From positions 30,580-94,579 of IMG/VR virus record IMGVR_UViG_3300036820_000008: a stretch of 64,000 bases of DNA. The stretch is one strand, 5' to 3'. Positions 9,374-32,365 of the stretch are shown here, piece by piece. This DNA is from a virus. Each line of letters begins with the position of its first letter. The first letter of the stretch is position 1. The position numbers and the translations under genes were made by a program. The notes under the pieces were generated by a model. That model was not told the origin of the DNA. It made no database searches and saw only the letters and a list, made by a program, of their open reading frames with translations.

Positions 9374-9395
9374 GGCCCTATCGTACCTTATGCAA
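9374..9395 (-). promoter_or_regulatory. Promoter for leaderless GIY-YIG-like gene
   Basis: On the minus strand the bases read TTGCATAAGGTACGATAGGG followed by CC and then GTG. The -10 box TACGAT is six bases before the start codon. The block matches those at 17512-17532, 18581-18600 and 22515-22536 (core GCATAMGGTANNNTAGGG). Confidence 0.6.
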
Positions 9396-17480: not shown

Positions 17481-17532
17481 GTACCTTACCCCTCCGACGG
17501 GTCGTACCTTACCCCTAGTCTACCGTATGCAC
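17481..17532 (-). promoter_or_regulatory. Promoter block plus twin 13-bp direct repeats
   Basis: The minus strand reads GTGCATACGGTAGACTAGGGG (17512-17532, -10 box TAGACT), then two direct copies of AGGGGTAAGGTAC (17504-17516 and 17481-17493) spaced 23 bases. The repeats lie between promoter and start codon of the DUF3631-like gene and could be a repressor operator. Confidence 0.55.
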
Positions 17533-17543
17533 CCGGTAGCTCG

Positions 17544-18548
17544 CTACCGTAGCGCGTCCGGGGTCTTGCTGCCGACCCCGGTGCTGAGGTCTGCGGTGTT
17601 AGCGTGCCGGACTCCAACGCCATACGCCTGCTCGTTGAACGAGAATGTTGGTGCCTTCCGCCTGCGAGCAGGCTTGCTGTTCTTGGGGTCTTCCTCTGGC
17701 ACCTCCAGGAACATCTCGGGGTTGTCATCGCGGAATAGCGCGTCCAGATCATCGACCCTCGAGGCTAGGAGGATCTCGGTTCCTGCCTGTCGGTTGCTCT
17801 CGACCTGGCGGAGACGCTGCGTAAGCCGGGACGTGTACCCATACGCGGCGCTCTTGCGATAGGTGGCCGTTCCCCCGGCAGAGATCTTGGTCGGCTGCTC
17901 GCCCCGCTCCTTCGTCGCCTGGTAGTAAGCGCGCTTGTAGATGCCGCCGACGTGGAACTTGGTCTTGTCGTTCCCCTCGCTGTCCCGCCACATCTCGGTG
18001 CCCTCTCGCAGGCCAACCTTCGACCACCCGTACATGCGAGCGATCTCCAGCCAGTTGTACCCTGCGTTGTGGAGGCGATAGCAGTTCTCGCTCAGTGAGC
18101 TGTTCCTGTCGATGCGCGGGATCAGCACACCGAGCATGTGCAGGCGGATGGTTGTGTACAGCAGCTCGAAGTAGCGCGCGTCCGACTCGAAGCCGTACAC
18201 CTTTGCCACCCACACGCCATCCCTCCAAGCGGTGTACAGGAGAGCGCGGCACCGGCAGTGCCTGGCCACCATGTCGCACAGCGACCCGAAGTAGCCGATA
18301 ATGTCAGAGTCGCCGCCGATCTCGACCGTTATGATGATTGGCCTCGTGCGCTGCTCGGCTGGCCGGGAGGCCTCGGCCTGAGTCTCGTCGACTGCGTGCT
18401 TGAGCATCAGCGCGTCGGCCATCTCGCGATACGATGTGGCCACCTTGGGGTCGGTGTTCGGGTCCTCGGCTACTGCGATCAGCTTGCGGACCTTGCTGAG
18501 GACACTGTCGAGTGACATCTCTCGCCTGTTGTTATCCTGATCGGACAT
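17544..18548 (-). CDS. DUF2786 domain protein, 334 aa
   Basis: Residues about 18-60 (VRKLIAVAEDPNTDP ... LMLKHAVDE) form a DUF2786 domain, common in actinobacterial and phage proteins of unknown function. The middle part (80-200) resembles the segment usually following DUF2786; the last 90 residues are basic and disordered. GAGGAGC precedes the ATG, and the gene has its own promoter block. A metal-dependent peptidase-like role has been suggested for relatives, but I see no firm catalytic motif. Confidence 0.78.
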   Translation of the reverse strand: MSDQDNNRREMSLDSVLSKVRKLIAVAEDPNTDPKVATSYREMADALMLKHAVDETQAEASRPAEQRTRPIIITVEIGGDSDIIGYFGSLCDMVARHCRCRALLYTAWRDGVWVAKVYGFESDARYFELLYTTIRLHMLGVLIPRIDRNSSLSENCYRLHNAGYNWLEIARMYGWSKVGLREGTEMWRDSEGNDKTKFHVGGIYKRAYYQATKERGEQPTKISAGGTATYRKSAAYGYTSRLTQRLRQVESNRQAGTEILLASRVDDLDALFRDDNPEMFLEVPEEDPKNSKPARRRKAPTFSFNEQAYGVGVRHANTADLSTGVGSKTPDALR

Positions 18549-18580
18549 TTCCTGCTCCTCTGTCGTGTGCGGGGCTATAC

Positions 18581-18600
18581 CCCTATCCTACCGTATGCAC
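18581..18600 (-). promoter_or_regulatory. Promoter block upstream of DUF2786 gene
   Basis: The minus strand reads GTGCATACGGTAGGATAGGG, with -10 box TAGGAT (18585-18590). Start of transcription would be about 30 bases before the ATG. Same core as the blocks at 9374, 17512 and 22515. Confidence 0.55.
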
Positions 18601-18627
18601 GCCACTAGGGCTAGGGGTCGGCGGGGT

Positions 18628-18663
18628 CCGGGTGGACGCGCTATAGGGTCGGCGTCCACCCGG
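18628..18663. terminator. 12-bp perfect hairpin after the 133-aa gene
   Basis: CCGGGTGGACGC (18628-18639) pairs with GCGTCCACCCGG (18652-18663) around a 12-base loop, 24 bases after the upstream stop at 18688. No U-tract. It lies between that stop and the promoter block, so it is probably a transcription or decay boundary. Confidence 0.6.
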
Positions 18664-18687
18664 TAGTCTCGGTATTCGCGGTAGTCG

Positions 18688-19089
18688 TCAGGATTCGGCT
18701 GCCTTTGTCTTATCGGGGCACCGGCTGCACGGGGCAGACGGCATTCCAGACAGGCGGCCGCATCCTTCGCATCTTTCTGGCTCCTGTGTCCAGGGCCAGA
18801 TGTCCTCCTTGAGGCCTCTGTAGAGGAGGCGGGCCATCTCGGTCTCGGTTGTGCGATAGCCTCCTATGCTTGCCTGCCGGAATAGCTCAGCGCAGGCCTC
18901 TTGCTCGCTTCCGGTACGTGCATGGCTCTGCAGGATGGACAGGAGCTTGTAAGCCATGCTGTGGTGCTCAGCGTTGGCCAGCGGTGCGCTGTTCGGCATT
19001 TTGCGGAGGGGAATCCCCTGCCTCATGTTTCTGGCAAGCTGCTCATGTCCGCCTACCTCGCGGAAGCGACGCCTGTCCTCCTCGCTCAT
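18688..19089 (-). CDS. Zinc-ribbon-containing protein, 133 aa
   Basis: ATG at 19089 overlaps the upstream stop as ATGA, which favours it over a GTG three codons earlier. The N-terminal 90 residues are helical; the C-terminus carries CEGCGRLSGMPSAPCSRC, a four-Cys zinc knuckle. Function unknown. Confidence 0.7.
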   Translation of the reverse strand: MSEEDRRRFREVGGHEQLARNMRQGIPLRKMPNSAPLANAEHHSMAYKLLSILQSHARTGSEQEACAELFRQASIGGYRTTETEMARLLYRGLKEDIWPWTQEPERCEGCGRLSGMPSAPCSRCPDKTKAAES

Positions 19090-19520
19090 GGCCGCCACTG
19101 CCTCCTTGCCCTGTCATATGCCTGCGGGGTTACTGGAGGCCAGACCGAAATCGCTGGAGGATCTCCCTCCGTGACATACGTCTCTCCGTGCTGGGAGCAG
19201 CTGGCCGGGTCGCCAGTCTGCATGGGGCGTGGTGAGTCAAGCTCGTGCCCGCAGCTCATGGGGTAGACGTAGTTGTCCTCGGCCTGGCCGGGGCCGGGTC
19301 GAGCTGTGGTATCTCCCTCGTCCTCTTCTTTGTTATTGTAGAAGATCTGGGCGACTCCTCTTCCGAGGAACTCCTCCATCTCAACCATCGTCAGCGGGTT
19401 GGTGTACATCGGGAGGCGCTGGATGACCCTGCGCCAGTTACCGTCGTTGTCCCAGCGCTCGATCTCAGTGCCGTCCCGCAGGACGATCCTGAATGCGCCC
19501 TCTGTTAGTCTATTGTCCAT
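19086..19520 (-). CDS. Hypothetical protein, 144 aa
   Basis: AGAGG precedes the ATG. Residues 8-60 form a beta-rich domain (FRIVLRDGTEIERWDNDG); the remainder is acidic and Pro-rich, with single Cys/His residues. Coupled to the next gene by ATGA. No family recognised. Confidence 0.68.
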   Translation of the reverse strand: MDNRLTEGAFRIVLRDGTEIERWDNDGNWRRVIQRLPMYTNPLTMVEMEEFLGRGVAQIFYNNKEEDEGDTTARPGPGQAEDNYVYPMSCGHELDSPRPMQTGDPASCSQHGETYVTEGDPPAISVWPPVTPQAYDRARRQWRP

Positions 19521-19751
19521 CGTCTTTGCCTCTCGGTTTGCTCGGGTAGCTATTAGCCTACTCCACTTGGAGTGCTAGCCGCTAGGGCTTAGCGGTAGCG
19601 CGTAGCACTCCCGTAAAGCGGGCAGAGCTCGCACGTACGGAGATTAGAATCGGGGTTAGGTAGCCCGGTAGGGTCGGGCTTCCGTAGGGCCTTAGCTCGG
19701 AGCTACGGGCCGTTTATGGGAGTGCTGAATTTTGCCCCCTAAAGCCGGGAG
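19521..19751. other. Structured noncoding gap
   Basis: No gene. Three hairpins follow one another: GGAGTGCTA/TAGCACTCC (19569-19611, with inner CCGCTA/TAGCGG), AGCCCG/CGGGCT (19662-19680) and CCGTAG/CTACGG (19682-19708). With the terminator at 19752 this makes a densely folded 230-base stretch that might be a small RNA or a long structured leader. Confidence 0.5.
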
Positions 19752-19780
19752 AGCCCGGCACCTGACATGGGTGCCGGGCT
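19752..19780 (-). terminator. Strong terminator-like hairpin
   Basis: AGCCCGGCACC (19752-19762) pairs with GGTGCCGGGCT (19770-19780), 36 bases after the stop of the 334-aa gene. It resembles the hairpin at 28613-28644, which also follows a monocistronic gene. Confidence 0.7.
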
Positions 19781-19815
19781 TCTCGGTGTGGACGGGTGGA
19801 CGGGCGGTGTGCGGG

Positions 19816-20820
19816 TCACTCGTCCGTGGTGTCCTGTGTGGTGTCTTCGCTCGCGGTGTCCTGTGTGGCGTCGGTGGGGGTGTCGTCGGTTGCCTCCGCG
19901 TCCGTGGGGGCCTCCGTGAGGCCTGCGGCAGTTTCGGACTCGGTGAGCCAGTCACTTCTCTGCGGCCGGGGGAGGTGCTTCAGCCACTCGTCACGGTCGG
20001 CCGGGAAGTGGTGGATCCACTGGGCCGCGCACTGCCGGGCCTCAGCGAGCCCGCCGATGCCGGCCAGGATGCCGTTGGGGTCGGAGCCGGTAGGGTCGGC
20101 CGGGTTATCGAGGCTGTGGATTGCCGCACCGATGGCCTCGACGAGAACGAGTGCGAGGTCACGCTTGGCCTGCCGGGATGCGGACTTGCCAGTGCCTTTG
20201 CCCGATCCTGTGCCCTTGGCCGTGGCCCAGACTCCACCGAGTTTGGCGACGCAGGTGTGGATGTGGACCGCGCCGGTGTATCCGTTCTCGGCCAGCCAGG
20301 CGTCGCTGGGGTCGGGGTCGGTCATCTCCGTGCTGGGGTCCGCTGGGTCGGCCTTGGGGTGCACGGGCTGGGGAGGGGTGCCGCTGGGGTCGTCCTCCTG
20401 GGTCCAGGACTCGCGGATCTGGTCATCCCACAGCTGGCAGATGAGGTCGTGCGGATCCTCCACCAGTGCGGAGCCGGGACGCTCGTAGTCGGACTTCCGC
20501 GTGTCACGCTTGAGTATGGGGCACTTGGGGGTTTCCTCGTCGCCGGTGACGTGAACCTGGAAGTCTCCGTCCTTGAGAACGAAGCTGAGCAGGTCGCGCG
20601 GGTCCTCCACTTCGTGGGCCGGGATCTTGGCCGGGGAGAGCTTGCCGTTCTTGCGGGAGACCCGGATCTTCAGATCCTTGGCCGTGAGCCCGCACTCCGG
20701 GCAGCCAGGAAGGCTCGAGGTTGCTGCTGTGTTCGTCCTTGGGTCCGTGGAGTCACCTTCTGTCTGGGGGATGTAGACCCAGGCCTGGTTCTCACCGGCG
20801 CACTCAATGATGGTTGACAT
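19816..20820 (-). CDS. Hypothetical 334-aa protein with HHFPADR C-terminal domain
   Basis: N-terminal half has a CPEC knuckle, acidic stretches and an IHTCVAKLGGVWATAKG segment. Near the C-terminus, WIHHFPADRDEWLKHLPRPQ matches the end of the protein at 27289-27723. A Thr/Asp-rich disordered tail follows. Very high GC in third positions, its own promoter and a strong terminator indicate a highly expressed single gene. No family recognised; Ser/Gly/Lys-rich linkers suggest a multi-part protein. Confidence 0.72.
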   Translation of the reverse strand: MSTIIECAGENQAWVYIPQTEGDSTDPRTNTAATSSLPGCPECGLTAKDLKIRVSRKNGKLSPAKIPAHEVEDPRDLLSFVLKDGDFQVHVTGDEETPKCPILKRDTRKSDYERPGSALVEDPHDLICQLWDDQIRESWTQEDDPSGTPPQPVHPKADPADPSTEMTDPDPSDAWLAENGYTGAVHIHTCVAKLGGVWATAKGTGSGKGTGKSASRQAKRDLALVLVEAIGAAIHSLDNPADPTGSDPNGILAGIGGLAEARQCAAQWIHHFPADRDEWLKHLPRPQRSDWLTESETAAGLTEAPTDAEATDDTPTDATQDTASEDTTQDTTDE

Positions 20821-21137
20821 GACTGCCTGCTTTCCTCTGGGGTTGCTGTTTGTTTGCTTTCGGTTGGTTTTCCGGGGGTTTGCTTTTGTTCTTTCGGTTC
20901 CTGCTGGTTTCTCGTCAGCCCGGCGGCTCTTACCTCGTCCCGGGCGGGACGCTAGTCAAACTATACCCTGTGATCGGCCGGTATGGGTAGGGTAGGGGGA
21001 GGATTCTTAGGCTCTATTTTCGACTACTTTGAGTTAGCATACCATGCGGTCTGCCTACGTGCAGTAACGGGTGGCTCCTGGCTGGGGTGTGCCGGTGTGT
21101 GCCGGTGTGTGCCGGTGTGTGCCGGTGCTGGGGTATC
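20821..21137. promoter_or_regulatory. Promoter region and leader of the 334-aa gene
   Basis: No gene in this 317-base gap. On the minus strand a TATAGT -10 box lies at 20960-20965, followed by a 130-base leader rich in CCC/GGG and pyrimidine-purine blocks. A tandem repeat (21086-21127) lies further upstream. Confidence 0.45.
21086..21127. repeat. 10-bp tandem repeat, about four units
   Basis: The unit GTGTGCCGGT repeats four times with exact 10-base period, placing a CCGG palindrome once per helical turn. It begins 10 bases after the stop of the minus-strand 197-aa gene. It could be a protein-binding array or a transcription pause region. Confidence 0.8.
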
Positions 21138-21744: not shown

Positions 21745-22514
21745 CCTCGTCCCGTCCGGGGTCTCGTGCAACGTCTTGTGCATGTTGCGTCCTGCGTTCC
21801 CCTCCCTGCCTTCCCCGCTCTCGCGCGCGTAGGCGCGCGTATATCCCTACCCTAGGGAATTCTACGACTTCTAAACCGTTACAGTAACTTCTCACCTCCT
21901 GCAGGAGCGGGTGCTGTGTGGGGATTGGATGGGGATTGAGCGGGGGTGGAGAGGGGGCTAAATTTCCGTCCGGGCTTGTGGGAGTGTTGATGGGTCCCTT
22001 ATCATATATTGAGAATATATAGTAGGTACGTAAGAAGCTATTGAAGCTAGCGGGTATAGGGTATAGTAACTCACCCGTGCAGTCGTTTTCTGGCACGCAA
22101 CAGCCGGAAAATTTCCGAAGGGGTATTCAGGGGTATTCAGGGGGTATTTCAGTGGTATTTACTGTTATTTCACGTGCTTCGAGGCAGTATAAGCCGTCTT
22201 TCGGCTGTTTCGAGGTCGTTTCCAGCCATAATTAACCGTGGAAACGACCCCTGCACACATGAAAAGTGCATGATTTCAGCGATTTTCGGACGGCTGCACC
22301 GCCCACATCGCCGCAGCGTACGGGTAGAAATCGTAGGTAGTTTTCGGCCTTTTCGGGAGAAAGCTGTAATCAGTGCCGCAAACCATGTGTGCGCATCTAA
22401 ATTCGCCCATTTTCAGCACTAAATCGCCATCTCGAGGGCATAATCTGTCTCAGCAGCAGGCGAGATCGTTAGCGGCGCTAAATAAGAGCCATATGCATCG
22501 GAATCATGGCTGTA
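21745..22514. other. Noncoding control region with iterons; candidate origin
   Basis: No believable gene in about 770 bases. Base composition drops in GC. Repeats reading GGGTATTCAG occur at 22121 and 22131, with a variant GGGGTATTTCAG at 22141, all about 10-11 bases apart. Two further TATTCAGG copies lie at 22911 and 22933. TTTTCGG recurs at least four times. One 32-bp element lies at 22467-22498. Iterons plus AT-rich DNA suit an origin of replication, but a pure control region cannot be excluded. Confidence 0.5.
22467..22498 (-). repeat. 32-bp element, copy A (inverted)
   Basis: Read on the minus strand it starts ATGCATATGGCTCTTA and ends TTTAGCGCCGCTAACG. It matches copies B (22798-22829) and C (23567-23598). 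It ends 26 bases before the -10 box of the plus-strand leaderless promoter, with its ATGCAT end nearest the promoter. Confidence 0.8.
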
Positions 22515-22536
22515 TTGCATACGGTATAATAGGGAC
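22515..22536 (+). promoter_or_regulatory. Consensus leaderless promoter
   Basis: TTGCATACGGTATAATAGGG then AC and ATG. The -10 box TATAAT is at 22525-22530, six bases before an ATG at 22537. The best copy of the promoter block found four times in the window. Confidence 0.75.
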
Positions 22537-22797: not shown

Positions 22798-22829
22798 ATG
22801 CATAACGTTCTTAATTAGCGGCGCTAACG
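22798..22829 (+). repeat. 32-bp element, copy B
   Basis: Starts ATGCATAACGTTCTTA and ends ATTAGCGGCGCTAACG. It lies in the gap after the 70-aa gene (22760-22931), which otherwise holds only TTTTCGG and TATTCAGG repeats. Confidence 0.8.
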
Positions 22830-23566: not shown

Positions 23567-23598
23567 ATGCATAAGAGCCTTAATTACCGGCGCTAACG
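23567..23598 (+). repeat. 32-bp element, copy C
   Basis: Starts ATGCATAAGAGCCTTA and ends ATTACCGGCGCTAACG. Relative to the minus-strand promoter at 23504 it has the same orientation as copy A has to the plus-strand promoter. It lies in the 23498-23671 gap, which holds no gene. Confidence 0.8.
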
Positions 23599-24922: not shown

Positions 24923-25234
24923 TCAGCCGTGTAGCTGGCTAAGGGTTCTGTCGTAGATCGGGGACATATCCTCGGCACAGTCCTGGGTGCGGATAGCCTC
25001 GGCCAGGCTGTGAAGGAGGGCTGCGACTGTTTCTCGATCGATGCCTTCGCCGAGAGCCATCTTGGCGGCGACGGTAGTGTTGTAGCTGAACATGTCCATG
25101 GCGAGGTGTACGTCGCAATCGTGATCTTCGTTGACACCCATCCACAGAGCGCAGTGGTGACACCACCTGCTTTCGCCGTTGATCTGATGTGGGACGTTCA
25201 TGACGTCGACGGTATTGTTCTTGCCGTTTGACAT
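24923..25234 (-). CDS. Zinc-binding-like protein, 103 aa
   Basis: Starts M-S-N-G-K, sharing a base with the preceding TAA (TAATG), and with GAGG upstream. CHHCALWMGVNEDHDCDVH is a compact Cys/His site; the rest is helical. Function unknown. Confidence 0.7.
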   Translation of the reverse strand: MSNGKNNTVDVMNVPHQINGESRWCHHCALWMGVNEDHDCDVHLAMDMFSYNTTVAAKMALGEGIDRETVAALLHSLAEAIRTQDCAEDMSPIYDRTLSQLHG

Positions 25235-25584
25235 TATCGGTTCCTCGCAGCCTCGGAGTCGGCCATGTCGCTGTCGTAAGTATCCTCGGCTCGAACACAT
25301 GTGCCAGGCACGGGGTTGGGCCCCATCGTGACGGCGTCGGACAGCCGACAGATGCGCTCTATGGTGGCGTCGTCTTCGGCGTACTCGACATTCATGATCT
25401 CGGATCCGTTGAGCTGGACGCCTGTCTCGCCATACGTGATTACGACAGCTACGTCGGATGGCTGACAGCGATAATTGTGGACGAGCTCTCTGGTGACCAG
25501 GACGGTCGTCGTGATCTGATCAGCATCAAAGCTGATCAGAGTGACCATCACCGGCTCGTTCAGGAGCCATGCTGGAATGGACAT
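25234..25584 (-). CDS. Hypothetical protein, 116 aa
   Basis: Starts M-S-I-P-A-W after GAGGGAG. Beta-rich first half and acidic second half. Directly downstream of the first copy of the covarying RNA element. No family recognised. Confidence 0.68.
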   Translation of the reverse strand: MSIPAWLLNEPVMVTLISFDADQITTTVLVTRELVHNYRCQPSDVAVVITYGETGVQLNGSEIMNVEYAEDDATIERICRLSDAVTMGPNPVPGTCVRAEDTYDSDMADSEAARNR

Positions 25585-25610
25585 TTCATTCTCCCTCTGA
25601 GCTACTATCG

Positions 25611-25666
25611 TGGTAGCTCCCCCGGTCGTCCCGCAGGGAAGTCGGGACGGCCAGAGCAGCTCGCCG
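25611..25666 (-). other. Conserved structured RNA element, copy 1
   Basis: Outer AGCT/AGCT pairs (25615-25618 with 25658-25661) and adjoining C/G pairs close an inner hairpin CGTCCCG/CGGGACG (25627-25633 with 25643-25649). The flanks (GGTAGCTCCCCCG and CCAGAGCAGCTCGC) nearly match copy 2, but the inner stem has a different sequence that still pairs. It fills the space between a stop codon and the next ribosome binding site. Confidence 0.7.
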
Positions 25667-25987
25667 CTAGAGATCTCCGCAGGGTCCGTCCTGAAGGCCA
25701 GGGGTCTCGTCCTCGTCTTCGTACGGACAGGAGATGTACTGTTCCCAGAGCTCACGCTCTCCGTCGATCTCCATCTCATCGAACATTGAGACGAATGGCA
25801 TGAAGTCATCGCCGACATCGACGAACTGGCCATTGAGCCACATCTTGCCGTCTGGGAAGAAGGTGATGAGCATCACGTCCCTGCCATTCTCAGGGAATCG
25901 CAGTGCTAGGTACTGTCCATCGCCGATCCTGCTCAGGGCAATCTTCTCGGTGATTACCCAGTCGTACTCGGGGGTCGGGAATTCCAT
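25667..25987 (-). CDS. Hypothetical acidic protein, 106 aa
   Basis: AAGGAAA precedes the ATG. Beta-rich (YLALRFPENGRDVMLITFF) with an acidic C-terminus. Its stop is followed immediately by RNA element copy 1. No family recognised. Confidence 0.7.
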   Translation of the reverse strand: MEFPTPEYDWVITEKIALSRIGDGQYLALRFPENGRDVMLITFFPDGKMWLNGQFVDVGDDFMPFVSMFDEMEIDGERELWEQYISCPYEDEDETPGLQDGPCGDL

Positions 25988-26024
25988 CTTGTTGGTTTCC
26001 TTTCGGAGCGCCGGTACTGCTACT

Positions 26025-26087
26025 AGTCTACCCTACCGGGCAGCCTGCCCGCTACCCCTAGCCGACGGCAATATCGGCGTTGGGGTA
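26025..26087 (-). promoter_or_regulatory. -10-like box and hairpins in gap 25988-26103
   Basis: TAGACT on the minus strand (26025-26030) would start transcription about 30 bases before the 106-aa gene. Just upstream, GGGCAG/CTGCCC (26038-26050) and the nested TACCCC/GGGGTA with GCCGA/TCGGC (26053-26087) form hairpins following the stop of the 73-aa gene. Confidence 0.5.
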
Positions 26088-26103
26088 TCAGGCTAGTCAA
26101 CCG

Positions 26104-26325
26104 CTAGCTTGGCGGCTCGATCTCATCGGTGATCGTGAAGCGCAGCTCCCCGATGAGGAACTCCTCTTCAGCCTCGACCGTGAATGGCCCGAACTGCTTC
26201 TTCTCGTATCCGTACACGGGAAGGGCAGATAGGGCCGTGAACATGTCCTGGCCCTCAGGGCCGCTGTAATTGTTGACCAGGAACATGGCCGTCTGCGTGG
26301 ACGTCAGGTTGTCGAACTTGGGCAT
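26104..26325 (-). CDS. Hypothetical protein, 73 aa
   Basis: ATG shares a base with the preceding TGA (TGATG). Contains FGPFTVEAEEEFLIGELRF, beta-like. Part of a coupled three-gene unit with the 86-aa gene and the 18-aa membrane peptide. Function unknown. Confidence 0.68.
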   Translation of the reverse strand: MPKFDNLTSTQTAMFLVNNYSGPEGQDMFTALSALPVYGYEKKQFGPFTVEAEEEFLIGELRFTITDEIEPPS

Positions 26326-26585
26326 CAGCCGAACTCCCCGTCGTTGATCGTCGAGCGGGCTCGGATCAGCCCGTTGTAGGAGTCATGCCCGTACTGTTCG
26401 GCAGTGCACTTCTGGGCGATGACGTAGTAGCCGAAGTTCTGCGCCTGCTCGGCGGTGAACAGCGTCCACTCGGTGCCGACCACCGTGAATGGCTCCGGCT
26501 TGATGGGGTGTTTCTCTCGCCAGCGGTCGATGTCGGCGAGATAGCTGTCGAACTCTTCAGGGGTCATGTCCCCGATGTTCGGCAT
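26325..26585 (-). CDS. Hypothetical protein, 86 aa
   Basis: ATG overlaps the stop of the 18-aa peptide as TGATG. Acidic helical N-terminus (TPEEFDSYLADIDRWREKH) then a beta-rich part. Function unknown. Confidence 0.7.
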   Translation of the reverse strand: MPNIGDMTPEEFDSYLADIDRWREKHPIKPEPFTVVGTEWTLFTAEQAQNFGYYVIAQKCTAEQYGHDSYNGLIRARSTINDGEFG

Positions 26586-26641
26586 CAGAAGATCACGATG
26601 ATCAGGATGATGATCACGGCGACCCAGAACAGCTTCTTCAT
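26585..26641 (-). CDS. 18-residue membrane mini-protein
   Basis: ATG at 26639-26641, preceded by GAGGAGAGG, encodes MKKLFWVAVIIILIIVIF and stops in TGA that overlaps the next ATG. A basic start and one hydrophobic helix make a tail-less membrane peptide. The strong ribosome binding site, coupling and clean hydrophobic pattern argue that it is real. Confidence 0.7.
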   Translation of the reverse strand: MKKLFWVAVIIILIIVIF

Positions 26642-26670
26642 GAGGCTTCCTCTCCTCTGGCTACCTACCT

Positions 26671-26725
26671 TGGTAGCTCCCCCGAGCCATCCGTATAGGC
26701 ACGGATGGCCAGGGCAGCTCGCAGC
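26671..26725 (-). other. Conserved structured RNA element, copy 2
   Basis: Same flanks as copy 1 (GGTAGCTCCCCCG and CCAGGGCAGCTCGC). Inner hairpin CCATCCGT/ACGGATGG (26687-26694 with 26701-26708). It lies between the stop of the 120-aa gene and the ribosome binding site of the 18-aa peptide. Confidence 0.7.
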
Positions 26726-26731
26726 TAGGAA

Positions 26732-27094
26732 CTACAGGAACCTGATCGGGATGTAATTGTCGCATGCCTGACAGTATGCTGTCGGATTGTCACCGGCGAA
26801 CACGCCGGGGTGCTCGCATTCGCTACTGGCTCTGGGTGCTGGGCTGTTGACGTGGAGGGCGTCGTACGCGACCCTGAGAGCCGTCATGGCATCCTGCAGC
26901 CGGTCGAACGGAAGAGACACCACGCTCTCGTTGAAGCGCACATACCAGCGCTTGGATTTGGGGTTGCTGATGATGTCCCACTTGGCGTCCGCCTTCAGCA
27001 CGTAGTGCCGGCTGGCGAACCTGCGGGTCATGTCGTACGGCAGGTGACTGTCCAGGCGAAAGTACCTGCCGTACGGCGGGATTGCTCCGGTCAT
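26732..27094 (-). CDS. Hypothetical protein, 120 aa
   Basis: Central beta-rich segment (KWDIISNPKSKRWYVRF), a helix, and a C-terminal CEHPG ... YCQACDNYIP that could bind zinc. Follows the 27-aa membrane peptide by a few bases. No family recognised. Confidence 0.7.
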   Translation of the reverse strand: MTGAIPPYGRYFRLDSHLPYDMTRRFASRHYVLKADAKWDIISNPKSKRWYVRFNESVVSLPFDRLQDAMTALRVAYDALHVNSPAPRASSECEHPGVFAGDNPTAYCQACDNYIPIRFL

Positions 27095-27181: not shown

Positions 27182-27232
27182 TTGACGTACCCTCTCTCGG
27201 AACGGCATCCCAACGGGCTGCCTCCCCGGCAT

Positions 27233-27255
27233 CCGCGCCTCGGCGTGAGGCGCGG
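27233..27255. terminator. 9-bp hairpin after the 144-aa gene
   Basis: CCGCGCCTC (27233-27241) pairs with GAGGCGCGG (27247-27255) around GGCGT, 34 bases after the upstream stop. No U-tract on the minus strand. Confidence 0.55.
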
Positions 27256-27288
27256 CTACCAGGGGGACGGACCGGCGTGACCTAGCGC

Positions 27289-27723: not shown

Positions 27724-28612
27724 TTTCTTCTTCTTCCTCTGGGTTAGGTCCCTATCTGGGGCCTCTAACGTCCTAGCCGGGTAGATTACCGCAGCCCGCC
27801 TAGGGCGAAAGAGGTCATAGGGTAGCGCCGCCACAACAGCGCTAGCTATGGCCTTACAATTGGTTGGGGTCCTAGTCGTTGGTCTAGGCGTCCCCCGGCG
27901 TCAGTAGCCTTACTAGAGTCCTCTCCCTAGCGGTTCTACAATCCGGCCCGTCAGCACGGGCGTCGTTATTAGGTAGGCGTCGGTCGCTCTGATTTCTCAG
28001 TGGGAGTCATGTCTCCTAGCCGCACGTGCCGCTTTCTACAGCAGCCTTTACGCGCTAGGGGCTCGGACCAAACCGCCCAGTTCTTAAGTTTTGGAGTAGG
28101 ATCGGCGCGCGTCACGCACGCCCCCGCGCACCCCGCGCGGCCCCGGCCTTACCCTTTTTCCTTTTTCGCTTACAGCTTAAGCTTACCGTACCGGGGTGGT
28201 AAAACCTAGGAAATGCAGTAACGGAATGGTAACGTTACACTGTAACTTTAGGTAGTGCACGACTACCTGCAGTAGCGCCCTGCCCTGGGGTTAACGTGCG
28301 CGTTAACTAACAGCGCTAGTATTATGGTAACCAAGGCGTCTGGAAGAACAGCGCTAGCGCTTAAAGTGTCCTAGAAATACTGGAGAACGATTTTACACTT
28401 TCCAGCAAAGTGCACTCCGAATTCATATACTGGAGAACAATTTTACAGTTTTGGAAGGACTGCACTCCATCGCTATCACTTTTGCAGAATTTCCAGCCGC
28501 TTGTCAGGGCAATTCCTGGAATAGCGCGGACAATGGAAATGTGTTTCCAGGGGAGTGTAGGAAGATAGCCGCCCAAGAGAGGAGGGAGTGGAGGGGAGAA
28601 TGGCGCAAGAGA
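27724..28612. other. Long noncoding region with direct repeats and palindromes
   Basis: About 890 bases without a believable gene. It holds three AACAGCGCTAG copies (about 27835, 28307, 28346), the palindrome GTTAACGTGCGCGTTAAC (about 28290-28309), an AGGTAG/CTACCT hairpin just before it, and a 50-bp-period direct repeat at 28378-28468. A pyrimidine run lies near 28150. This could be a second control or replication region. Confidence 0.5.
28378..28468. repeat. Two direct repeats with 50-bp period
   Basis: ATACTGGAGAACGATTTTAC (28378) and ATACTGGAGAACAATTTTAC (28428), each followed by a near-matching TTT segment and then TGCACTCC. On the minus strand each contains GTAAAAT, a possible -10 box, so the pair may be tandem promoters or operators for genes to the left. 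Confidence 0.75.
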
Positions 28613-28681: not shown

Positions 28682-29227
28682 CTAGGAGTCGGTCCGATTC
28701 CACTTCTGGTACGAGGCAGGCACAGAGCCAGTTTTCAGCCCGATCACCCAGGCTCCATTGAACTGGCCGCCGTAGTCATCCGTCATTACTTCGCAGAGAT
28801 CTCCGCCAGAGGCCTCATTGCAGATGAAGCCGCCAGTTCCGCCGTACATAAGCCACTGCTGGTCGCTATCGCCATCGCACGGGGCCATGTCGAGGTGAAT
28901 GTTGTCGTCACCGCCTGAGTCGTCGACGCATTTGCCGGACGCCTCAGAGACGATCGTTCCCCAGTTGCCGATGCCCCCGGACATCGCCCATTCCTGGGAG
29001 CTCTGTCCTCCACAGCCCTGTAGATCGAGGTCTCCGGCATTGTTCTGTATACAGTACGCGGGGTTCGCGTTCAGCGCGAGGTGATGGTATGTTACGGCAG
29101 AGGCACTGGAGACGCCAGCCGAGCTAGTTCCGGCGGAGACGCCGAGTCCAGCCAGGAGGACGCCAACAGCGAGCAGTACGGTCAGGCCAAAGAATCTTCC
29201 GCGAGATCTGAGTCTCTTGAATCCCAT
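28682..29227 (-). CDS. Secreted ricin-B-type (beta-trefoil) lectin, 181 aa
   Basis: From the ATG at 29227 a basic n-region (FKRLRSRGRFF), a hydrophobic core (LTVLLAVGVLLAGLGVSAG) and a Ser/Ala-rich end form a secretion signal, cleaved probably near SSASA. The mature part has three repeated units, each with a Q-x-W motif or variant: SSQEW, DQQWLMY and YQKWNR, typical of ricin-type carbohydrate-binding domains, plus paired Cys. No catalytic domain is attached. It is flanked by its own promoter and terminator and lies next to the strand switch. A start at 29257 is possible but has no ribosome binding site. Role in the phage is unknown; host acquisition is plausible. Confidence 0.85.
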   Translation of the reverse strand: MGFKRLRSRGRFFGLTVLLAVGVLLAGLGVSAGTSSAGVSSASAVTYHHLALNANPAYCIQNNAGDLDLQGCGGQSSQEWAMSGGIGNWGTIVSEASGKCVDDSGGDDNIHLDMAPCDGDSDQQWLMYGGTGGFICNEASGGDLCEVMTDDYGGQFNGAWVIGLKTGSVPASYQKWNRTDS

Positions 29228-31165: not shown

Positions 31166-32365
31166 ATGGAGCAGATAAACAAGAAGCTGTTTAACTGGGC
31201 TTCTATTCTCGAGGATGGTGCCCGGGAACAGACGATCCGAACAGCAAGCATGCCGTTCATACACCCGCATGTGGCCGTCATGGCCGATGCTCACTGGGGC
31301 AGAGGAGCAACCGTAGGGTCGGTTATTCCGACGGTCGGGGCGATCATTCCAGCGGCCGTGGGAGTAGATATCGGGTGCGGGATGATAGCGCACAGGACAT
31401 CGCTGACGGCCGAAGATCTGGCCGATCCTGTGATTCGCCGCAGGATCCGCGAGGAGATCGAGCGCTGTATCCCGCTGTCTATGGGGATGTACAATCAGAG
31501 CCTCTGGGATCACAAGACAGAGCGTCGCGTCCAGGAGCTCGAGTCGATATCTGGGGCGGCGGATGCGAATGAGATCGCAGATTGGACCATGCAGATTGGA
31601 TCTCTCGGGTCAGGTAACCACTTCATCGAGATCAGCATCGACGAAGAGGACCGTATCTGGCTGTTTCTGCACTCAGGTTCCAGGGGCGTCGGCAACAAGC
31701 TGGCGATGAGGCACATCAAGATCGCCCAGGAGTTCTGCGAACGGTACTGGATTGATCTTCCTGATCCCGACCTTGCGTATCTGGTCGAGGGGACGCCTGA
31801 GTTCGACAACTATCTGAGGTGTCTCACCTGGGCGCAGCATTTCGCTCTGCTCAATCGGGAGGAGATGATGCACAGGGTAGAGGAATCTGTCTATCACGTC
31901 ACCGGCAGGAACTGGTTCGTCGACGAGCGCGTCAACTGCCACCACAACTACACCGAGCAGATGAGCGGCGAGCTGATCGCCAAGTGGAAGTACCCCAAGG
32001 GGCGTAAGGGGCACATATGGCTCTCCCGTAAGGGTGCCATCGATGCCACCGAAGGCAGGCCGGGGCTGATTCCTGGATCGATGGGGACGCGCTCGTATGT
32101 CGTCGAGGGCAAGGGGAACCTGCTCTCGCTCAACTCGTCTCCGCACGGGGCGGGGCGTGAGTACAGCCGTTCTGCGGCCAAGAAGACGTTCACACGCGCG
32201 CAGCTCGACGAGGCGATGATCGGCATCGAGTGGCGGCATAGCGATGCCTTCCTGGACGAGATTCCACAGGCATACAAGGACATCGACGTAGTGATGAATG
32301 ATGCATCGGATCTAGTCCGCATCAGGCACACTTTGCGTCAGATCATCAATGTCAAAGGAGACTGA
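31166..32365 (+). CDS. rtcB: RtcB-type RNA ligase, 399 aa
   Basis: RtcB joins RNA ends carrying 2',3'-cyclic phosphate (or 3'-phosphate) to 5'-OH using GTP and Mn2+. Signature residues are all present: VDIGCGM (D68, C71), GSLGSGNHFIE (N151, H152), HSGSRGVGN (H169), HHNYTE (H259/H260), and SSPHGAGR with H327, the expected guanylylated His. Length is typical of the short bacterial form. No Archease gene is visible. In a phage the likely job is repair of tRNA or mRNA cut by host anticodon nucleases or toxins. It is embedded in a plus-strand operon of small unknown genes. Confidence 0.95.
   Translation: MEQINKKLFNWASILEDGAREQTIRTASMPFIHPHVAVMADAHWGRGATVGSVIPTVGAIIPAAVGVDIGCGMIAHRTSLTAEDLADPVIRRRIREEIERCIPLSMGMYNQSLWDHKTERRVQELESISGAADANEIADWTMQIGSLGSGNHFIEISIDEEDRIWLFLHSGSRGVGNKLAMRHIKIAQEFCERYWIDLPDPDLAYLVEGTPEFDNYLRCLTWAQHFALLNREEMMHRVEESVYHVTGRNWFVDERVNCHHNYTEQMSGELIAKWKYPKGRKGHIWLSRKGAIDATEGRPGLIPGSMGTRSYVVEGKGNLLSLNSSPHGAGREYSRSAAKKTFTRAQLDEAMIGIEWRHSDAFLDEIPQAYKDIDVVMNDASDLVRIRHTLRQIINVKGD

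Follow-up and report, generated by a model that had tools for sequence, protein, structure and literature searches.

A Repeated Two-Hairpin RNA Element under Structural Selection in the Small-Gene Gaps of a Soil Phage

Introduction

Hairpins between phage genes are familiar from T7, in which intergenic RNase III sites are the places where the early mRNA is processed. The early region of the actinophage phiC31 reportedly carries rho-independent terminators without poly-U tails, at which Ingham and colleagues are said to have measured termination in 1995. The ESAS and SAS of cluster K mycobacteriophages are repeated inverted repeats in the gaps before the starts of nonstructural genes, with a consensus that differs by subcluster (PMC3203893, PMC11373665). 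In T4-like phages, promoter early stem-loops (PeSLs) join an early promoter to a stem-loop terminator, in the form in which a later article relates them (Arbiol 2010, cited in PMC4503421).

Here we describe a repeated intergenic element in the window, by which we mean the whole 64,000-nucleotide stretch of DNA that was analysed, part of a 94.6-kb viral record (IMGVR_UViG_3300036820_000008; G000). The nearest relative of this soil phage is an 88-kb IMG/VR record (IMGVR_UViG_3300036792_000176; G001); among cultured phages, terminase similarity places Thermobifida phage P1312 (57%) and Streptomyces phages, Dagobah and phiSAJS1 among them, closest to it. The host is likely actinobacterial, an assignment with terminase similarity as its sole basis; a search of bacterial genomes with the terminase found no relative and hence no host. 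The window also encodes an RtcB-type RNA ligase (31166–32365, plus strand; Pfam PF01139, 6e-113) and a small protein that combines a hydrophobic stretch at its N terminus with a ricin-type beta-trefoil lectin domain (28682–29227, minus strand). A 958-nt noncoding stretch contains a 25-nt direct repeat whose two copies (28377–28401 and 28427–28451) are 92% identical and 50 nt apart.

Structure of the Element

The surrounding genes run leftwards and the element is read as RNA on their coding strand, the minus strand, on which its parts follow one another in the order stop codon TAG, flank, hairpin H1, hairpin H2, Shine-Dalgarno sequence (SD), and start codon. The two hairpins stand back to back. 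H1 comprises at least 12 bp of copy-specific sequence, with an outer stem of about five pairs running into an inner stem of at least seven, and in six of eight copies a bulge or mismatch separates the two stems (structural alignment A5). H2 has about 7 bp of conserved sequence (GGCTACC-ACGGTA-GGTAGYC or a variant) and, like the outer flanks, keeps its sequence across copies. Both copies proposed by the sequence-only reading were found where it had placed them (25611–25666 and 26671–26725), although its limits were slightly short and cut off the 3′ arm of H2; the covariance model R1 sets them at 25599–25669 (copy 1, also from alignment A5) and 26658–26727 (copy 2). The respective R1 scores are 59.6 and 64.9 bits and are not independent evidence, since the model was built from all eight copies.

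Copy 1 lies between an upstream 106-aa gene (25667–25987, minus strand; 71% identical to G001 20695–20982) and a downstream 116-aa gene (25234–25584, minus strand), neither of a known family. Its TAG is followed by the flank CGGCGAGCTG and by H1 (25620–25656), in which a C·A mismatch stands between the outer stem and the inner stem CGTCCCG/CGGGACG. H2 (25599–25619) reads GAGCTAC-CACGATA-GTAGCTC, and the SD AGAGGGAG follows directly 3′ of it (25591–25598), ahead of an ATG at 25584–25582. Folds and counted pairs define both hairpins. Copy 2 has a bulged U separating the inner and outer stems of H1 (26680–26714; fold and counted pairs) and an H2 of AGCTACC-AAGGTA-GGTAGCC (26658–26679; counted pairs). 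Upstream of it is a 120-aa gene of no known family (26732–27094, minus strand) and downstream an 18-aa hydrophobic ORF (MKKLFWVAVIIILIIVIF; 26585–26641, minus strand) that has an SD and a stop overlapping the next start.

The claim that each element starts at a stop codon holds in that a TAG heads the element, but the gene upstream of copy 2 has its own TAG a few bases further upstream and the element nevertheless retains a TAGC. The other boundary was read correctly, each element ending just before the next SD. Spacing is constrained on both sides: the distance from stop codon to H1 is 10–11 nt in five copies and 14–17 nt in three, and H2 ends 13–21 nt before the start codon in seven of the eight (17 nt in copy 2) and 61 nt before it in the other. 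Readthrough of the stop codon (UAG-CGG context) was considered and rejected, the open frames after the stop being inconsistent in length, from 3 to 48 codons. Single-sequence folding gave z scores of −1.3 (copy 1) and −4.95 (copy 2) in 101-nt windows; over the gaps alone the values were −2.8 and −3.7. What decides that the element exceeds chance is the finding of six more copies in G001 together with the covariation result.

Covariation and Strand

The data support an RNA on whose structure selection acts, the copies of one genome differing by compensatory changes. As the sequence-only reading had proposed, the differing inner stems of the two window copies both pair (CGTCCCG/CGGGACG and CCATCCGT/ACGGATGG) and the outer stem keeps its pairing by including U-G pairs. 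Across the eight copies of alignment A5, 96.5% of cells are paired and 14 of 22 pairs show two-sided change (37 cells). This structural alignment was made by hand, since MAFFT (alignment A2) had put the stems in the wrong place; N stands in it for gaps and also for the extended top of H1 in the G001 copy at 18157. The covariation score of 0.662 compares with 0.236 ± 0.035 in shuffles, none of 500 reaching it, and with at most 0.136 in slid versions; the copies are mutually related, so the shuffle counts are not probabilities and more weight falls on the slid versions and on the independent families described below, and the structure was derived from the same eight sequences, which favours it somewhat. 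The signal sits in H1, which is kept as a duplex of at least 12 bp whose sequence is free to change while pairing holds. H2 alone covaries weakly (27 of 500 shuffles reach its score), since its core is invariant.

It is the mRNA that folds: the coding strand shows an excess of G-U pairs over A-C mismatches (17 cells against 3, counted from the covariation table; reading the opposite strand would swap the numbers), and R1 scores are strongly biased to the sense strand (53–72 bits, against at most 26.7 antisense). A DNA-level site, such as an operator bound by a dimer or a site of recombination, with palindromes that only resemble hairpins, is already disfavoured by this asymmetry and by the lack of sequence conservation in H1. 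Although cluster O mycobacteriophages do carry repeated palindromic sites between genes (PMC4351075), we regard such a site as very improbable here. A palindromic word resembling an operator, TTAGCGCCGNTAATTA, recurs elsewhere in the window, at 22466–22484, 22812–22827, and 23581–23596 among other places (4 matches against 0.03 expected), and in G001 gaps near 23.6–25.0 kb.

Further Copies and Parallel Families

A search of related phages for further members and for covariation, on which the sequence-only reading had staked itself, returned both, including six copies in six consecutive gaps of G001 (18157–19848). Copy 2 and the G001 copy at 19764 occupy syntenic positions and share 85% identical DNA (G001 19758–19826). 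A third, divergent copy lies in the window at 26025–26106 (minus strand; R1 21.6 bits), beginning exactly at the stop TAGCGG of the gene at 26104–26325, and is syntenic with a divergent seventh copy in G001 (20358–20434; 16.9 bits) that likewise begins at a stop codon. Where G001 has another family copy, the window has a stop-to-start gap with a strong hairpin of unrelated sequence (27209–27288, minus strand).

The sequence family occurs in none of the other IMG/VR or cultured phage records examined. The exact H2 pattern, searched across viral contigs, and scans with two neighbouring proteins each led to G001 only, and megablast of the element region against cultured phages gave no match. A distant blastn search with copy 2 yielded only chance matches in Pseudomonas phages (best E = 3). 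Rfam had no match above the gathering threshold in the window or in L076, L083, and L020, and a relaxed search gave a single sub-threshold match on the other strand. A degenerate H2 pattern hit 50 stretches, which we do not count as members as they score at most 20 bits with R1 outside the two phages, on preselected sequence. The element thus represents a real new RNA family of modest reach, of a kind, repeated intergenic phage hairpins, that is already known.

Neither H2, nor a family of eight or more copies, nor the parallel families that the analysis brought to light in sister phages had been part of the sequence-only reading. Five gaps of the sister phage G012 share GTAGGCTGGT...GCCGGCCGGCC around differing inner stems, with 97.8% of cells paired, two-sided change in five pairs, and a covariation score of 0.350 against 0.150 (0 of 500 shuffles). 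Three gaps of G003 share TGARTCACCGGG...CCGGGC, again with differing inner stems, all cells being paired and 9 of 21 pairs changed on both sides (0 of 500 shuffles). These families, from more distant relatives, are unrelated in sequence to that of the window and have the same design of a fixed outer part and compensating inner stems. Strong hairpins occur in small-gene gaps across the group, cultured Streptomyces phages included: in 11 of 11 genomes tested, folding is stronger in stop-to-start gaps than in coding windows from that genome, most clearly in phiSAJS1 (z below −2 in 17 of 18 gaps), with genes called by a simple purpose-written caller that may have misplaced some gap limits. In two phiSAJS1 gaps (L110, NC_029005.2; 26295–26403 and 28460–28571) a TTGCAC or TTGCAT provided by the 3′ hairpin arm lies, by eye, 17 nt before TACTGT or TATAGT; a terminator-like hairpin and a promoter may overlap there.

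Proposed Punctuation of a Small-Gene Operon

As the likeliest reading we propose, at a probability of roughly 45%, that the repeated element acts as mRNA punctuation inside a small-gene operon, through 3′-end formation or protection or through processing. H1, 10–17 nt past the stop codon, would form and protect the 3′ terminus of the message upstream, either as a terminator without a U-tail, partial since there are six in a row, or as the product of processing; H2, flush with the SD, would give the downstream message a defined 5′ leader, and each small gene could thereby be expressed as a semi-independent unit. We counted in favour of punctuation the fixed geometry, the covariation, the strand asymmetry, the independent families of G012 and G003, and the folding of the gaps. 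An RNA role within the operon is further favoured because the copies hold none of the signals sought there, namely a −10-like word (0 of 8 copies), a U-tract terminator, or a sigma-70 promoter.

A role at the start of transcription would read the same gaps differently, as a cassette of promoter and stem-loop resembling the T4 PeSLs or the early gaps of phiC31, with H1 terminating, the H2 region acting as a phage-specific promoter, and the shared flanks letting gene cassettes recombine. Across the gaps of the group −10-like words are commoner on the sense than on the antisense strand (42 against 21 of 164), and hairpin gaps with TATACT after them occur in the sister phages G004 and G005. Most H2 copies contain ACGGTAGG, common to a repeated promoter-like CATACGGTAGGATAGG; the H2 word, however, is one base shorter and lacks TANNNT. 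Of the six genes that immediately follow the G001 copies, five lack a homologue in the window phage, but the enrichment for gene cassettes is not significant (p = 0.083). With no −10-like word in the copies themselves, and a G-U bias that indicates selection at the RNA level at least in H1, we consider this arrangement unlikely. A promoter-like word, CATACGGTAGRMTAGG, occurs elsewhere in the window at 17514–17529, 18582–18597, 9377–9392 (minus strand), and 22518–22533 (plus strand), four matches with at most two mismatches against 0.06 expected, and a similar word is present in G001 gaps.

The conservation of H2, the most conserved part of the element by sequence, could instead reflect translational regulation, in which H2 beside the SD binds a phage protein or competes with P0, a pairing of the 5′ flank with the 5′ arm of H2, and ribosomes at the upstream stop alter how accessible the next start is. 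P0 is paired in 93.8% of cells, and by free energy copy 2 prefers P0 and the other copies H2, so that a P0/H2 switch is suggestive only. Against it, P0 covariation does not rise above shuffles (177 of 500), H2 covariation is weak, and the SD is covered by neither structure, making such a regulator quite unlikely. We give equally little credence to a broader version, a genome-specific multicopy RNA switch or protein-binding site in which the ribosome at the upstream stop would set the P0/H2 alternatives and the consensus of each lineage would co-evolve with its own RNA-binding factor.

The roles suggested by the sequence-only reading, a processing site, a decay barrier, or a target of a phage RNA-binding protein, are all compatible with the sequence data. 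At the elements a GC-rich stem-loop stands downstream of the stop with no T-run tail; the missing U-tract after H1 and the empty terminator scan count against punctuation by termination. Were six elements in a row full terminators, with no promoter recognisable among them, the genes downstream would moreover be silenced, so termination would have to be partial or overcome, or else is not the function. Because of the phiC31 precedent we infer termination without a U-tail as the first choice and processing as the second. A rival reading, in which H1 is a double-strand-specific site of RNase III type where a read-through polycistronic message would be split by cleavage, as in T7 early mRNA, and its ends protected by H1 remnants and H2, is possible though rather doubtful. 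H1 is a long, near-perfect duplex of free sequence with a bulge or mismatch recurring in most copies, and the absence of promoter and U-tract from the elements suits such a site; H1 by itself, however, would be one of the shorter substrates of this kind, and the conserved H2 sequence would be left unexplained.

If mRNA punctuation is correct, phages that are probably actinobacterial punctuate their small-gene operons with repeated RNA elements of which each lineage has its own version, the stems diverging within a single genome through compensatory changes and the flanks staying fixed. The expression of long runs of small genes of unknown function as separate units is thereby made directly testable, and the copies offer a natural set of matched hairpins for the study of U-tail-free termination or processing in high-GC hosts.

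Comparison with Known Systems

The element resembles the phiC31 terminators in coming from a probable actinophage and in having a GC-rich stem-loop after the stop and no U-tract, a likeness drawn by description rather than by sequence comparison; the measured termination is that of phiC31, whereas the hairpins here are predicted from sequence. To our knowledge, H2 and the repeated flanks are not part of the phiC31 terminator description. T7 RNase III sites are similarly hairpins between genes, unlike the element in that it has a conserved second hairpin at the SD, and cleavage here is hypothetical. With the T4 PeSLs, as far as the citing article portrays them, the element shares repeated stem-loop gaps among small genes that differ between relatives; it differs from that portrayal in that the copies contain no recognised promoter (a phage-specific one is possible), T4-like myoviruses are unrelated, and cassette shuffling is only suggestive.

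Turning to cluster K, the 13-bp SAS GGGATAGGAGCCC sought at starts has one match with two mismatches in the window, against 1.96 expected by chance, and SigA-like −35/−10 hexamers were not found at the elements; because of these two results we do not file the element as an ESAS. ESAS keep the sequence of their arms, vary the spacer, and contain SigA-like promoters, whereas the window element varies the arms of H1 with compensation and has no recognised promoter. As inverted-repeat elements in gaps before starts, with a lineage-specific consensus, the ESAS are nevertheless the closest described repeats.
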